This document shows, piece after piece, positions 11,685 to 41,811 of a stretch of DNA of 64,000 nucleotides. Under the pieces are notes generated by a model. The model did not search any database. It was not told the origin of the DNA and saw only the letters and a program-made list of their open reading frames with translations. Both the position numbers and the translations under genes were made by a program. Positions within the stretch are counted from its first letter, which is position 1. Each line of letters starts with the position of its first letter. This stretch comes from Lactobacillus johnsonii (GTDB taxonomy: Bacteria > Bacillota > Bacilli > Lactobacillales > Lactobacillaceae), in the NCBI RefSeq assembly GCF_014058685.1, contig NZ_CP059055.1, forward strand, positions 1,488,001 to 1,552,000. Reading direction: 5' to 3'.

Positions 11685-12119
11685 ATGACAGAATTAGAAA
11701 AGGATTGTTTATTTTGTAAAATCATTAGAGGAGAAATTCCTTCTTACACAGTTTTTGAAAACGATGATGTCAAAGCTTTTCTTGATATTTCTCAAGTAAC
11801 TAAAGGACATACTCTCATTATTCCTAAGAAGCACTTGGTTAACTTCTTTGACTACAGCCAAGAAGATGCTGCTAGATTTTTACAATATATCCCTGTTATT
11901 GCCCAAGCAATTAAGAAGTCTGATCCAACTATTAAAGGATTGAATGTTGAGGTGAACAATGGTGAAATCGCTGGACAAGTTGTAATGCATTCACATATTC
12001 ATTTAATTCCACGTAGAAGCGAAAATGATCCTGTTTCTACTCCTCACGTAAACAATGCAGACGAATATTCAGAAGAAGATTATCAAGCGGTTACAAACGC
12101 TATCAAAAACAATCTATAA
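11685..12119 (+). CDS. hit: HIT family nucleotide hydrolase/transferase
   Basis: 144 residues. The His-triad motif HSHIHLIPRR near residue 105 and the N-terminal CLFCKIIRGEIPSY zinc-type motif identify the HINT branch. It hydrolyses adenylated substrates in the cytosol. AGAAAGGGG precedes the ATG. Confidence 0.95.
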   Translation: MTELEKDCLFCKIIRGEIPSYTVFENDDVKAFLDISQVTKGHTLIIPKKHLVNFFDYSQEDAARFLQYIPVIAQAIKKSDPTIKGLNVEVNNGEIAGQVVMHSHIHLIPRRSENDPVSTPHVNNADEYSEEDYQAVTNAIKNNL

Positions 12120-36797: not shown

Positions 36798-37247
36798 TTA
36801 AATCACCATCTTATTCTGTCTTTCAATTGGTAACCAGTACCTTGTAAAGTATAAAGAATTCTCACATTCCTTACTCACTGAATTTAGTTCAGGGTGAAAA
36901 GTATTCTCCTCTTCCGCTTTACTTATATCTTGAAACTTCCAATGAAGATCAAAACCCTGCATAACATAATTAATACATTTTCTCCCAAAAATCATTGAAG
37001 ATTTTAGTACTGGATAAATCGATAAATATATTTCATTAGTAAAATGATTAGGATCAAAAAAGCATTCTTGAGGATACTTGTGAATTATACTTTGAAGAAG
37101 ATTCCAAGTATTTTCACTGAGTATCATATTTACCATAGTTTTAGAGTTCACTTCCTGCGGAATATTATTGTGTTCGATATCATTACGCAGTGGCTTATTA
37201 CAAGATTTAAAAAGTTTTGGAAGTCTGCATTTTCTAATTTTTGACAA
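36798..37247 (-). CDS. Unknown protein overlapping the truncated uracil-DNA glycosylase gene
   Basis: 149 codons; no domain is recognised. The first 35 residues are unusually basic and may not be translated; internal Met at MVNMILSENTWNLL is an alternative start. It overlaps the 3' end of the glycosylase remnant by 14 bp and occupies the place where the rest of that gene should be. Confidence 0.35.
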   Translation of the reverse strand: MSKIRKCRLPKLFKSCNKPLRNDIEHNNIPQEVNSKTMVNMILSENTWNLLQSIIHKYPQECFFDPNHFTNEIYLSIYPVLKSSMIFGRKCINYVMQGFDLHWKFQDISKAEEENTFHPELNSVSKECENSLYFTRYWLPIERQNKMVI

Positions 37248-37479
37248 AATAATAGAAAACGTCTCTCGAAACTCCTAACCAGGTCCGAAGACGATCACCA
37301 CTAGGATCATCCCAGAATTTCATTTTTTCTTGGGCAATTCGTCCTGGTGCTTGACCAATAATATTTATTCTGGCAGATGAAGAAGCATAGTAAAGTGACT
37401 TGATCCCTTGCTTTGTAAAAGATTCATTATCAGGATCTGCTTGAATTTCTTGAAAAATTTTTTGAAATTCACTTTGCAT
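37234..37479 (-). pseudogene. Uracil-DNA glycosylase family protein, 3'-truncated
   Basis: 81 codons. SARINIIGQAPGRIAQEKMKF is the catalytic GQAPG block of family uracil-DNA glycosylases, followed by GDRLRTWLGVSRDVFY; then the reading frame leaves the family (YFVKN, stop). Family members have about 190 residues, so more than half is missing. It starts normally at MQSEFQKIFQEI. Confidence 0.75.
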
Positions 37480-37560: not shown

Positions 37561-38196
37561 CTAATTTTCGAATAATTCAATTCGACGTAATTGACGTTTC
37601 AGTTGACCTTGCTTTTCTAATAAAGCAAATTTACGAGACAGGGTCTCAGGTGTTGTTCCAAGGTATAAGGCTAAGTCCTTCATTTTTAAGGGTAAGGTAA
37701 AATTATTTTTACCAATTTCATCTGCATATGTTTGTAAATACTTTAATAACCGGTCTTCAACCTTCGGCAAAGCCAACAAGTGAATTTGTTTTTGCATTTC
37801 CGAAACTTTAACAATATTTAGTTCCAATAATCGAATACTTAATTCTGGCTGTTTATGCATCAGCTTCAGTAGATCCTGCCGTTTTAATAAACAAATTTCA
37901 CTGTGTTCCGTAGCCTCGACGTAATTATTGATATTTTTTTGACCAAAAAGCCAATTCTCACCAATATAATCACCTGTATGCAAGATTTGCAAAACATTCT
38001 CATAGCCGTCTTCATCTAAGGTGTACTGCTTAGCGTTACCATCAGCGACAATTACTAAATTATCATTTATCGTTGGATTAATTATCACTTTACCCTTTTG
38101 ATAGTTTTTATGCTGAACTAATTTTTCGATTTGCATCTTCTCATCCTGAGGTAAGGCATTAAATAGTGGTACTAAGTTAACACATAAATCAGCCAT
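37561..38196 (-). CDS. flp: FLP, FNR-like redox transcriptional regulator (Crp/Fnr family)
   Basis: 211 residues from the ATG at 38196. A second ATG nine bases upstream (38205) is too close to AAAGGA. With this start the only cysteines are Cys5 and Cys102, the pair I recall forming the redox-active disulfide in L. casei FLP. N-terminal cyclic-nucleotide-binding-type fold (residues about 15-120); C-terminal Crp HTH (MKDLALYLGTTPETLSRKFALLE). There is no Fe-S cysteine cluster as in E. coli FNR. It is the last gene of the ATPase operon, and a matching box lies in the operon promoter. Confidence 0.88.
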   Translation of the reverse strand: MADLCVNLVPLFNALPQDEKMQIEKLVQHKNYQKGKVIINPTINDNLVIVADGNAKQYTLDEDGYENVLQILHTGDYIGENWLFGQKNINNYVEATEHSEICLLKRQDLLKLMHKQPELSIRLLELNIVKVSEMQKQIHLLALPKVEDRLLKYLQTYADEIGKNNFTLPLKMKDLALYLGTTPETLSRKFALLEKQGQLKRQLRRIELFEN

Positions 38197-38215
38197 TAAA
38201 TTCATCGTCCTTTAA

Positions 38216-38761
38216 TTAAAAGTCATCATCGTCGTCTTCGACATACAATCCTTCTTTTAGTTCATGACCTAAGAAGTCTTGAGTTACCCGAATTTGCTCC
38301 TTAATCCAAGCCATTAAATTAATTAAATTAGCAGATAATTCTAGCCAACTTTCATTGTTAGCTAAAGCAATTGCCTTAGTAATGAAGAGCGTTTGCGTAT
38401 CAAAATCTTTTACCAAGGCAACCAATTGCTTATCACCTGCTAAATATTTACTACTGCCATCTTCTTCTAGCATAGTATATTCCTTAAATTGAGCTGTAAT
38501 TATTGGAATACTTTCACCATTATTAACCAATAAGTGATTCAATTGGTCAAATTCCTGACGTTCATAAGCAATCCAACCAGCAGCTTTTTCGCCTAAAAAA
38601 AGACTAGCAGATCCTTTAGCAAATAAGTTAGCTTGGTTAATCTTTAAAGAATGGATTAACAAGTTAGAAATAATGTGACCAGTCATAGCAGCTGCAGTTG
38701 GCTGATGGTGATCAAGGTCGCTTTGCTTCAATTCCGCCTGGTATTTTTCTTCTGCATTCAT
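38216..38761 (-). CDS. Dps/ferritin-like fold protein, ferroxidase residues not evident
   Basis: 181 residues, helical, with the length and pattern of Dps (KGSASLFLGEKAAGWIAYERQEFDQLNHLL, then GESIPIITAQFKEYTMLEE). The ferroxidase His/His/Asp/Glu set is not obviously conserved, so iron oxidation is doubtful. Acidic tail VEDDDDDF. Its ATG overlaps the HMA stop by one base and flp follows by 10-20 bp. The Dps assignment is by pattern only. Confidence 0.55.
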   Translation of the reverse strand: MNAEEKYQAELKQSDLDHHQPTAAAMTGHIISNLLIHSLKINQANLFAKGSASLFLGEKAAGWIAYERQEFDQLNHLLVNNGESIPIITAQFKEYTMLEEDGSSKYLAGDKQLVALVKDFDTQTLFITKAIALANNESWLELSANLINLMAWIKEQIRVTQDFLGHELKEGLYVEDDDDDF

Positions 38762-38991
38762 CAGTTAAGCTCCTTTTCCTTAATTCCTTGTACTTCATAA
38801 CCCATTTTTTCAATAGCTGTCTTGACGTCAACAGTTTTAGTCTTATCAGGATCCAGCGTAAATTTTAGCTTTCCTGCATTGAATAAAACTTTTATTTGGT
38901 CGGTTCCATCCAAACTACCAACCGCCCTTTCAATTTTGCTTAAGCATGAAGGACAGGTCATGCCAGATAATTTCATCATTACTTTTTCCAT
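38761..38991 (-). CDS. Heavy-metal-associated (HMA) domain protein, CopZ-like
   Basis: 76 residues. Single HMA ferredoxin-like domain with metal site GMTCPSC (Cys residues 13 and 16). It probably delivers a soft metal to the P-type ATPase encoded 26 bp upstream, which has no HMA domain of its own. The Dps-like gene overlaps its stop. Confidence 0.88.
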   Translation of the reverse strand: MEKVMMKLSGMTCPSCLSKIERAVGSLDGTDQIKVLFNAGKLKFTLDPDKTKTVDVKTAIEKMGYEVQGIKEKELN

Positions 38992-39017
38992 GATTAAATT
39001 CCCTCTTCCTTATTAAT

Positions 39018-40919
39018 TTACATATCTAATGCTACTTTGTTTTGTTGATTATAAACTTGATGATCATCAATTTTTTGTTGAAATTTGATTAATCTCATTC
39101 CGTTCAAGATAACAATTAAGATACTAAATTCATGAATAAACATCCCACTTGCCATTTCAACATAACCCGCAAACAAACCGATGAACAACAATAAGACTGT
39201 CAGTAAAGCCATCCCGATATTTTCATTCATGTTCAAAATTGTCTTCTTGGATAAGCCAAGGGCATAAGCAATCTTCCGCAAGTCATTTTTAACTAAAACT
39301 ATGTCTGAAACTTCAATAGCAACATCCGTTCCACTACCAACGGCAATTGCAACATTAGCATTAGCTAAGGCCGGACTATCATTGATCCCATCACCAATAA
39401 AAGCAATATGGTGTCCCTTAGCTCTTTCTTTTTTAACAAAAGCAGCCTTGTCTTGTGGCAACATTTGACCATGAACTTCATCGATCGACAACTTCGCCGC
39501 AATTCGTTCAGCAGTTTCTTGATTGTCTCCAGAAAGCATAACTAACTTTTTAACTCCTAATTCTTTTAAGCGGGTTAAAGCAGCATTAGCTTCTGGGCGC
39601 AATTGATCTTTAATGCCAAAAACAGCTAATTGACTTTGGTCTTCATTAGCAAAAGCGACAATTGAATTACCTAATTGACTCAAATGATTAATTGTCTTAT
39701 CCAATTTTGCATTAATACGGGTATTTTCAACGATTAAGTCTTGGTTACCTAAATAATATTTTTGATTATTTAAAATGGCGATGATTCCCTTACCCTTAAC
39801 AGTTTCCACTTTAATTGAAGCTGGCTTTTGTTTATTTAATTTGGCAATTGCCTGAGCTAAGGGATGGTTACTTTGACGCTCAATTTGAGCAGCTAATTTA
39901 ATAATTTCATCTTTGGACCCATTTAATACCTCAATTGCACTAACTTCTGGATGTCCAACAGTCAAAGTGCCGGTTTTATCAAAAGCAATTTCATCAATCC
40001 GGTGAGTTTGATCCATTACTTGCGACCCTTTAAACATAATGCCGCTTTTAGCACCATTACCGATACCAGCAACTGTAGATACTGGTACACCAATAACTAG
40101 AGCACCTGGACAGCCCAGCACCATGACCGTAATAGCTAACTTAAGATCTTTAGTAATTAGGCCCACAGCAATCGCAATTACAAGTACGGCAGGAGTGTAA
40201 TATTTGGAAAACCGATTAATTAACTTTTCTGTATGTGACTTTGTATCTTGTGCTTCTTCAACCATTTCAATAATTTTACCGAAAGTCGTATCTTCACCGA
40301 CTGCGGTAGTTTCGACAGTCAATGTACCGTTTTCAAGGATAGTTCCTGCATATACTTCATTACCGGCTTTTTTATTAACTAATTTAGATTCACCGTTAAC
40401 ACTGGCTTCATTAAGATAACCGGAACCTGAAATAACCTTGCCATCGACTGGAACCTGATCACCAGTTTTAACTAAAATCTTCTCCCCAGGATCAATGAAA
40501 TCGACGTCTTCTTTCTCAGTTGAGCCATCATCTTGAACAACTAACGCAGTCTGTGGTGCCATTTTGGTTAAATCAGCAACGGCTGACCGGGTTTTCTTTA
40601 GGGTTAATTCTTCCAGTACATCTCCTAACATGAATAGCCAAGTAACAATGGCTGCTTCATTAAATTTACCAATAATGAAGGCACCGATTACCGCCAGCGA
40701 TACTAAAACATCAATAGAAATTAATTTAACCCTTAAAGATGAAATAGCCGTCAAAGCAATTGGAAGTACTCCGACAATCCCCACGATAAGCATCAAAGCC
40801 TGGTATGGTAAATTCATGTGCAATAGCCATTTAGATCCTTCAGCAAGCAACAGCAGAATAGTATTAACAAGCAAAAGCTGCTTTTTGTACCTCATAAAAA
40901 ATTGTTGTAACTTAATCAT
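39018..40919 (-). CDS. Heavy-metal-translocating P-type ATPase (P1B) with CPG motif
   Basis: 633 residues; no N-terminal HMA domain. Membrane segments about 15-100, then the A-domain (LNEASVNGESKLV), the ion-site helix with LGCPGALVIGVP, phosphorylation site FDKTGTLTVG, HP motif in ERQSNHPLAQA, and the hinge FIGDGINDSPALANA. Most P1B pumps have CPC at the ion site; CPG suggests a different metal preference. It is first in the operon with hma, dps-like and flp genes. Confidence 0.92.
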   Translation of the reverse strand: MIKLQQFFMRYKKQLLLVNTILLLLAEGSKWLLHMNLPYQALMLIVGIVGVLPIALTAISSLRVKLISIDVLVSLAVIGAFIIGKFNEAAIVTWLFMLGDVLEELTLKKTRSAVADLTKMAPQTALVVQDDGSTEKEDVDFIDPGEKILVKTGDQVPVDGKVISGSGYLNEASVNGESKLVNKKAGNEVYAGTILENGTLTVETTAVGEDTTFGKIIEMVEEAQDTKSHTEKLINRFSKYYTPAVLVIAIAVGLITKDLKLAITVMVLGCPGALVIGVPVSTVAGIGNGAKSGIMFKGSQVMDQTHRIDEIAFDKTGTLTVGHPEVSAIEVLNGSKDEIIKLAAQIERQSNHPLAQAIAKLNKQKPASIKVETVKGKGIIAILNNQKYYLGNQDLIVENTRINAKLDKTINHLSQLGNSIVAFANEDQSQLAVFGIKDQLRPEANAALTRLKELGVKKLVMLSGDNQETAERIAAKLSIDEVHGQMLPQDKAAFVKKERAKGHHIAFIGDGINDSPALANANVAIAVGSGTDVAIEVSDIVLVKNDLRKIAYALGLSKKTILNMNENIGMALLTVLLLFIGLFAGYVEMASGMFIHEFSILIVILNGMRLIKFQQKIDDHQVYNQQNKVALDM

Positions 40920-40942
40920 TTTTCCCCTCTCCCTTTCTTGAC

Positions 40943-40992
40943 ACTACACATTATAGGTAAAAAACAATTTAGGTGACTTGACTATTATCAAG
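40943..40992 (-). promoter_or_regulatory. FLP/FNR-box promoter of the metal ATPase operon
   Basis: -10 TATAAT (plus strand 40950-40955), no good -35. The box CTTGACTATTATCAAG (40977-40992) is an FNR-type site (TTGAC-N4-ATCAA) and a perfect inverted repeat at its arms. Its centre is 41.5 bp upstream of the predicted start near 40943, the class II activator position for FNR/CRP proteins. Confidence 0.7.
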
Positions 40993-41142: not shown

Positions 41143-41715
41143 TTAATGTGCCAATTTAATCTCTCCAGCAGCAATTGGCAAAGTTGTATGTGCATCATAA
41201 CTCATAACATTACCGGCAACGCTAGATGGCAATTTAAGATCCGCTGGTACGCCGTGAACATAAACTACTCGTTTGTCTAATTGAAGATCGTCACTACCAA
41301 ATGCTTGCTTAAATTTTACTTGTAAATCTTTTAATGGGACATCCTTATCATATTCATAATGACCGTATTTATCTGCAAACGGGTAGCCATCATGGGGAAT
41401 GTTCATTTCTTGTGGTGCATCATCAAAATGAACCATCGTTGTCCCAGATACTGCCTCTGTTTCAGGTAAATCAATAAAGCCATCATGATTCACATCCTGC
41501 ATTAGCGTCGGAACATGAGCTTGTTTCCCATCTGGAAATCCATGGAAATGTTCCCAATGTTCAATATTGGCAGGCGTATCAAATATTTCCACATGAATAT
41601 GAAGGCTATTACCATTTTCACTGAATGTTGCTATTCCATGCGCCTGTGCTTCAATTTTATCCGCATTTATTGGTTTAATTTTTGCAATATAGTCAACTAT
41701 TACTGTTTCTCTCAT
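41143..41715 (-). CDS. Unknown protein with His-rich and EF-hand-like motifs
   Basis: 190 residues from the ATG at 41715 (a TTG four codons earlier has no better ribosome site). It shows HIHVEIFDT, HWEHFHGF and later HFDDAPQ/IPHDGYPF; the calcium-loop-like DVNHDGFIDLPE (Dx[N]xDGxIxxxE) is near residue 80. The spaced His residues suggest metal binding, loosely reminiscent of CHRD or Cu-Zn SOD-like folds. No signal peptide. It lies upstream of the metal ATPase operon but with its own terminator. No family assigned. Confidence 0.6.
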   Translation of the reverse strand: MRETVIVDYIAKIKPINADKIEAQAHGIATFSENGNSLHIHVEIFDTPANIEHWEHFHGFPDGKQAHVPTLMQDVNHDGFIDLPETEAVSGTTMVHFDDAPQEMNIPHDGYPFADKYGHYEYDKDVPLKDLQVKFKQAFGSDDLQLDKRVVYVHGVPADLKLPSSVAGNVMSYDAHTTLPIAAGEIKLAH

Positions 41716-41811
41716 CAACTTAACCAACTCAACTCCCCAAAACGGACACTTATCTACACAACCTAAAAATCCAGCACGTTGTCCACTCGACCCTCTAGCT
41801 CAACAAGCAAA

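Follow-up and report, generated by a model that had tools for sequence, protein, structure and literature searches.

A probable mobile metal-export cassette of Lactobacillus johnsonii with two predicted class II promoters for its own FLP regulator

We studied the FLP regulator and the surrounding operon in a 64,000-nt stretch of the Lactobacillus johnsonii genome (assembly GCF_014058685.1, contig NZ_CP059055.1, positions 1,488,001 to 1,552,000), in the following referred to as the window. On its minus strand, genes for a heavy-metal ATPase, an HMA protein, a DpsA-like protein and FLP follow each other closely in this order, with flp being the last. They very probably form a mobile cassette for metal export and DNA protection, whose last gene encodes the activator of the cassette itself, acting at two class II promoters with sites at -41.5. 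The predicted promoter architecture is evident from its conservation; that FLP binds there and activates is what we infer. To our knowledge, the targets and the signal of FLP proteins have stayed vague. The cassette would provide a concrete regulon for them, tied to one ATPase type and found from Lactobacillus to clostridia, and is relevant to the handling of metals and peroxide by gut lactobacilli. The respective features are as follows.

37561..38196, minus strand: flp, Crp/Fnr-family regulator, 211 amino acids from the ATG at 38196; Pfam cNMP_binding and HTH_Crp_2 over cut-off
38216..38761, minus strand: DpsA-like protein, 181 amino acids; best phmmer match Lactococcus lactis DpsA (1zs3, E 2.2e-28)
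38761..38991, minus strand: HMA-domain metallochaperone, 76 amino acids, with Cys13 and Cys16; Pfam HMA over cut-off
39018..40919, minus strand: P1B-type heavy-metal ATPase, 633 amino acids, with CPG and the single cysteine Cys270; TIGR01525 and TIGR01512 over cut-off
39029..39034, minus strand: P2 -10-like element TAGCAT, 29 nt from the P2 box centre; predicted start at about 39022
39056..39071, minus strand: P2 box ATTGATGATCATCAAG, within the 3' end of the ATPase gene and upstream of HMA-Dps-FLP
40950..40955, minus strand: P1 -10 element TATAAT; predicted start at about 40943
40977..40992, minus strand: P1 box CTTGATAATAGTCAAG, centre at the predicted -41.5 of the ATPase promoter

The predicted P1 promoter

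The box CTTGACTATTATCAAG of P1 is located at 40977-40992, and 29 bases lie between its centre and the first base of TATAAT (40955-40950, minus strand). The transcription start was predicted by the usual 7-nt offset after TATAAT, i.e., at about 40943, which puts the box centre at -41.5. The best -35-like hexamer at a spacing of 16-18 nt matches TTGACA in only 3/6 positions. That is, given the predicted start, P1 has the composition of a class II promoter: a site at -41.5, a -10 element and a poor -35. A first-pass annotation of this DNA had claimed both a box centred 41.5 bp from the start predicted from TATAAT and the lack of a good -35; coordinates and spacing bear out the former and the hexamer search the latter.

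The palindrome by itself was rejected as evidence. It is not decisive since CTTGA-N6-TCAAG is found twice in the window (0.14 expected) and CTTGATNNNNNTCAA occurs 38 times in the genome. The other CTTGA-N6-TCAAG palindrome of the window is at 11781-11796. When the palindrome is combined with a class II -10 element (pattern TTGAY-N4-RTCAA, 22 nt, TANNNT), four exact matches are obtained in the 1.95-Mb genome, namely the P1 box, the P1 box on the opposite strand, the P2 box and 1937017-1937058. Such a low number of sites suggests that FLP is a local regulator.

Conservation of box and spacing

From 71 loci (labelled by L and a number; L132 was left out), we evaluated the 150-nt regions preceding the ATPase, HMA, FLP and Dps genes. 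Non-redundant counts are provided in addition, since some genomes are represented by more than one record. As a hit, we counted an exact match to TTGA-N6-TCAA together with a -10-like hexamer (A at position 2, T at position 6) at exactly 29 nt. Hits were found for 62/69 regions upstream of HMA (34/38 non-redundant) and for 40/65 regions upstream of the ATPase (22/42), compared to 6/64 (5/29) for FLP and 3/43 (1/14) for Dps. Among shuffled regions, the respective fraction is 0.05-0.07%. Given this conservation of both box and 29-nt spacing across loci relative to the shuffles, the P1 box is far beyond chance.

Each upstream region with an exact box had one with a -10 at 29 nt. When the offset was scanned from 18 to 41 for the 55 non-redundant boxes, a -10 was present at 29 in 52 of them, while no other offset reached more than 13. 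A -35 with 4/6 matches or better accompanies only 4/55 boxes. As a control, we considered 279 other genes of 50 loci. Nine of these have a box and five a box with a -10 at 29 nt: two are copies of a CHRD-like gene, two of a RIC-like gene in two related records, and one is unexplained. For the RIC/ScdA-like gene, which was named by eye, the box is of the FNR type with a -10 at 29 nt; the gene is on the minus strand at L048:9588 and L050:3816, and one of the two records is from Sedimentibacter saalensis.

The arrangement also persists where gene order or regulator have diverged. In clostridial loci, HMA comes first, mostly with TTTGAY-N4-RTCAAA, and both box and spacing are kept though the regulators are only 27-35% identical. 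In the split cassettes of Listeria (L134) and Enterococcus faecium (L135), there is a separate box at 29 nt for each of dps, flp, HMA and ATPase. Divergent gene pairs in Ruoffia (L044) and on a Lactiplantibacillus plantarum plasmid (L141) have one common palindrome with a -10 at 29 nt on either side. Conservation of box and spacing in relatives, which had been set as a check along with the initial claim, thus holds up to and including the clostridial loci. A fixed spacing of this kind is the trace expected from a class II activator.

In the parts of the searched literature that were available, most subscription journals excepted, we found no description of the 29-nt box rule. Some of the findings may already be in print, in particular that the flp operons of L. 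lactis have a site at -41.5. The exact rule may allow the regulon to be found in other genomes by sequence.

A second predicted promoter within the ATPase gene

The P2 box (39071-39056) is part of the final ATPase codons. It is separated by 29 bases from TAGCAT and by 72 bases from the start of HMA. The exact box with a -10-like hexamer at 29 is found in all 30 of 30 loci with an HMA protein at least 68% identical, and with one mismatch and unchanged spacing in L079-L082, where HMA identity is 39-41%. The initial description of the operon promoter was thus correct with regard to P1 and incomplete otherwise, as this second box before HMA-Dps-FLP had been missed.

Around P2, the DNA seems to be more conserved than the protein, because the box is retained where the ATPase frame shifts or stops: the ATPase alignment shifts frame near residue 615-617 in L006 (the genome of L071), L032, L034 and L043 and ends there in L033 and L040. 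On the L. lactis plasmids, the same second promoter is found in a gap of 705-706 nt that separates ATPase and HMA, unlike in the window, where P2 overlaps the ATPase gene. Promoter conservation despite a changing reading frame provides a useful illustration of how regulatory DNA can be hidden at the end of a gene.

The regulator and its sites

From its second ATG (38196), FLP has cysteines at positions 5 and 102 only, as had been stated beforehand for the better start; relatives without an upstream ATG begin at the equivalent M-A-(D/E)-L-C. Both cysteines are kept in 53/53 rows of our first alignment (many of them near-identical), in 33/33 non-redundant regulators down to 27% identity (one of which, L136, is of the L134 type and interrupted), and in 4/4 FLP paralogues (L025, L026, L027, L030). 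In L026, L027 and L030, from other Lactobacillus genomes, the paralogues are about 36-38% identical to FLP and convergent to CPC-type ATPases.

FLP is a member of the Crp/Fnr superfamily, with PF00027 and PF13545 over cut-off and a fold matching FNR and CRP. Its AlphaFold model has a mean confidence (pLDDT) of 93, and the top Foldseek matches are holo-FNR structures of Aliivibrio fischeri (TM score about 0.48). The recognition helix reads E184-T-L-S187-R188, where E184, S187 and R188 are each found in 32/33 non-redundant regulators. Residues like these read TTGA in FNR. Within the genome, FLP is the sole PF13545 match over cut-off, with three weaker matches below it.

We also compared the number of box-plus--10 sites among 75 Lactobacillus genomes. 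The 35 genomes with an FLP-family match have on average 4.2 sites versus 1.3 for the 40 without (Mann-Whitney P ~2e-9), where counts include both palindrome strands and the FLP-less set includes incomplete genomes. One Lactobacillus genome (G005, with L072, L073 and L074) has five FLP-family matches and three cassettes, two of which have an ATPase match that starts from residue 40.

Proposed activation by FLP

We propose that an FLP dimer would bind the TTGA-N6-TCAA palindromes at P1 (ATPase) and P2 (HMA, Dps, FLP), each at the predicted -41.5. Bound FLP would then activate RNA polymerase in a class II manner, since neither P1 nor P2 has a good -35. As P2 also feeds FLP, a positive loop would result. 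The signal would be read via the invariant Cys5 and Cys102, by a reversible disulfide or by metal binding. Judged from the protein families, the output would be a lower level of cytosolic toxic metal (with Fe, Cu and Zn as candidates) and DNA shielded by the DpsA-like protein.

A number of observations weigh against this model. The position of the site is by itself compatible with a repressor, the P2 -10 of the window (TAGCAT) is weak, and within the same species, the P1 box of L031 has one mismatch. Many FLP-less genomes hold sites as well, up to 6, and the all-loci counts include several records of the same genomes. Furthermore, 25/65 ATPase regions (20/42 non-redundant) have no exact box. 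Of these 20, 13 belong to clostridial-type loci with a box before HMA. Among the others, L084 has a one-mismatch box at 29 nt, L036 is cut by a contig end, the gene match of L072 begins at ATPase residue 40, and the box is intact about 0.4 kb farther upstream in L071 and found about 1.6 kb upstream in the genome of L082. The remaining two, L045 and L063, simply have no exact box within 150 nt. An exact box is likewise missing from the HMA regions of L045, L046, L059 and L079-L082. Here, L046 has a box before its ATPase, only 104 nt are covered for L059, and L079-L082 show the one-mismatch box at 29 nt. With regard to L071, P1 and the ATPase start are set apart in this Lactobacillus genome by about 0.4 kb of additional DNA (L071:347-843), with P2 untouched.

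Alternatively, the palindromes would be repressor sites of FLP or sites of another factor. We consider this very unlikely given the fixed -41.5 spacing, the lack of a good -35 in 51/55 boxes and the fact that FLP has the only Crp-type helix-turn-helix over cut-off in the genome.

The signal sensed by FLP

The first-pass annotation had combined class II self-activation by FLP with control by thiol redox state. The class II half is strongly supported. The redox half is only consistent with the data: both cysteines are invariant, but His/Cys-rich tails in relatives fit metal binding too. We weigh the redox and the metal reading about equally.

Thiol redox sensing by FLP is plausible. Here, a Cys5-Cys102 disulfide formed by peroxide or oxygen would alter DNA binding, with export and Dps as outputs under oxidative stress. 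We regard this switch as a serious candidate, somewhat short of even chances. It is in line with the invariance of both cysteines in the regulators, with the Dps partner in the operon and with the disulfide that the FLP of Lacticaseibacillus casei reportedly forms. Furthermore, in Cmr, a Crp/Fnr protein of Mycobacterium tuberculosis, an intramolecular Cys36/Cys131 disulfide weakens DNA binding (PMC5499769). On the other hand, 18/33 relatives have a tail of at least 7 residues before the first conserved cysteine, which is superfluous for a plain disulfide switch. In Streptococcus suis, a C129S exchange in FlpS, which is a different protein, left arcABC expression unaltered (PMC5039431, with the data not shown there). 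In Listeria, 0.01% H2O2 changed no plasmid gene in R479a and one in strain 6179, whose plasmids may or may not carry the cassette (PMC6985202).

Alternatively, Cys5 and Cys102, together with the His and Cys of the tails in relatives, would bind the exported metal, i.e., FLP would be a Crp/Fnr-type metalloregulator of a P1B pump, to which we give a comparable, likewise less than even, chance. Over the 33 regulators, the tails contain 67 His or Cys among 273 residues compared to 172 among 6971 elsewhere, a ten-fold enrichment. Each of the 18 tailed regulators has at least one His/Cys and 15 have at least two, where the tail start codons were picked by script, which counts against this reading. 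In its favour, the regulator co-occurs with the ATPase and the HMA protein in Bacilli and Clostridia, and paralogues with the same cysteines adjoin CPC-type ATPases (L026, L027, L030). However, the tail of FLP in the window has three residues and neither His nor Cys, which leaves two thiols per subunit, and no metalloregulator of the Crp/Fnr family was found in the searched literature as far as its text was available.

A third option is that FLP holds an oxygen- or NO-labile Fe-S cluster like FNR, via Cys5, Cys102 and non-Cys ligands. In the alignment, Cys102 corresponds to the cysteine that follows ETSMV in A. fischeri FNR, a cluster ligand, and holo-FNR provides the top fold matches. L. lactis FlpA is cited as binding a cluster through N-terminal non-cysteinyl residues (PMC5039431). 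We nevertheless consider a cluster improbable for a protein with two cysteines only and a tail of three residues. FLP lacks the four cluster cysteines of a [4Fe-4S] FNR.

A wider generalisation is more doubtful than either the redox or the metal reading and put forward tentatively. It holds that Bacilli and Clostridia share a widespread, ancient and mobile regulon, in which a Crp/Fnr regulator with the Cys pair, often His/Cys-tailed, would be a metal-responsive activator of CPG-type P1B ATPases at -41.5. If true, this would be a class of metalloregulators built on the FNR scaffold and working at -41.5.

Comparison with known systems

The FLP of L. casei (Gostick et al. 1998) reportedly forms a Cys5/Cys102 disulfide and has an in vitro site CA/CTGA-N4-TCAG/TG. 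FLP of the window is alike in its Crp/Fnr fold, in having exactly two cysteines, at 5 and 102, and in lacking the four-cysteine set of FNR. Its site TTGA-N6-TCAA, in contrast, differs from CA/CTGA-N4-TCAG/TG, also by N6 against N4 spacing. Like FNR of the Escherichia coli type at class II promoters, the window shows an ExxSR recognition helix, a TTGAT-N4-ATCAA-like site and the -41.5 position, whereas FLP is without the four-cysteine cluster motif and has few sites in the genome. By cysteine number and fold, FLP can be assigned to the known FLP kind, and its predicted class II architecture is unusually well conserved.

Among L. lactis replicons, the plasmids pGdh442 and pIBB109_AgSa_4 have the same four-gene order and both boxes, and L. 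lactis DpsA is closest to the Dps of the window. The plasmid FLP differs by being 42.7% identical only and having a His-rich tail. This comparison concerns the plasmid operons; FlpA and FlpB are mentioned in PMC3547956 and PMC5039431.

For the Listeria plasmid pLM58, a gene table lists a FetB-Dps-Crp/Fnr-Lgt-HMA-ATPase cluster, the regulation of which is not discussed in the part consulted (PMC5663981). The cluster of Listeria and Enterococcus plasmids resembles the window in its homologous ATPase (about 51%), HMA, Crp/Fnr and Dps proteins and in boxes at 29 nt, and differs by separate promoters for dps, flp, HMA and ATPase and by a canonical ferroxidase-type Dps. The oxidative-stress plasmid pCAUH203 of L. 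plantarum was rejected as a functional parallel. Its annotation, from an incomplete PLSDB gene table, has a canonical Dps and an ArsR-type regulator without such an ATPase or FLP, and a search of the 300 nt preceding its dps found no exact TTGA-N6-TCAA.

The cassette proteins and their metal

The ATPase is of the P1B heavy-metal type according to TIGR01525, TIGR01512 and its DKTGT site. Its CPG is present in the window copy and in all 52 of the 59 loci for which the motif was read. CPC is the motif in the metal-binding helix of P1B-1 and P1B-2 pumps (Cu, Zn/Cd), and the ATPase of the window does not have it. The HMA protein matches CopZ-like NCBIfam models below cut-off. The DpsA-like protein is a Dps homologue by its match to 1zs3 (E 2.2e-28), has no Pfam family match and, in an alignment with canonical relatives inspected by eye, is without the canonical Dps HW..H ferroxidase motif.

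The neighbours suggest both iron and copper. The context leans to iron with Dps, FetB, VIT/CCC1 and RIC-like neighbours, and to copper with the CopZ-like HMA, a multicopper oxidase and paralogues beside CPC ATPases. The direction of transport would be export. Riboswitch control of the ATPase was rejected as an explanation, since Rfam scans at gathering scores listed no metal riboswitch in 35 loci (10 + 12 + 13, the window not being among them). A riboswitch has been suggested for a ZosA-like gene of Listeria (PMC6985202).

Probable horizontal transfer and neighbouring genes

The ATPase is about 95-99% identical among records labelled L. johnsonii, L. gigeriorum, Limosilactobacillus vaginalis, Limosilactobacillus coleohominis, Limosilactobacillus avistercoris, [Lactobacillus] timonensis, Ligilactobacillus saerimneri and an uncultured Lactobacillus. 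Such identity across Lactobacillus, Limosilactobacillus and Ligilactobacillus suggests that the gene was transferred horizontally in recent times. The cassette is probably mobile, because related ATPase-HMA sets, mostly with Dps and FLP, are found on plasmids from the nine genera inspected (Lactiplantibacillus, Lactococcus, Lacticaseibacillus, Listeria, Enterococcus, Ligilactobacillus, Leuconostoc, Staphylococcus and Weissella).

Directly upstream of the cassette, the following gene is located.

41143..41727, minus strand: CHRD-like gene with the motif HWEHFHGF, without its own box in the window

Its product has no Pfam match. Where the gene lies beside the cassette, it has a box with TATAAT at 29 nt in L038/L088 (one genome), a box with TAGATT in L043 and a box with a poor hexamer in L031, L069 and L070, while none was found upstream of it in L033, L040, L079, L080, L081 and the window. 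Away from the cassette, the orthologues in L026, L041 and L141 also show an FLP-type box, with a -10-like hexamer at 29 nt. The CHRD-like gene may thus be a member of the regulon whose promoter was lost in the window, and an older form of the cassette may have comprised three FLP promoters and five genes.

On the other side, right after flp, an 81-amino-acid fragment (37234-37479) matches the start of the uracil-DNA glycosylase domain and is probably a broken gene.

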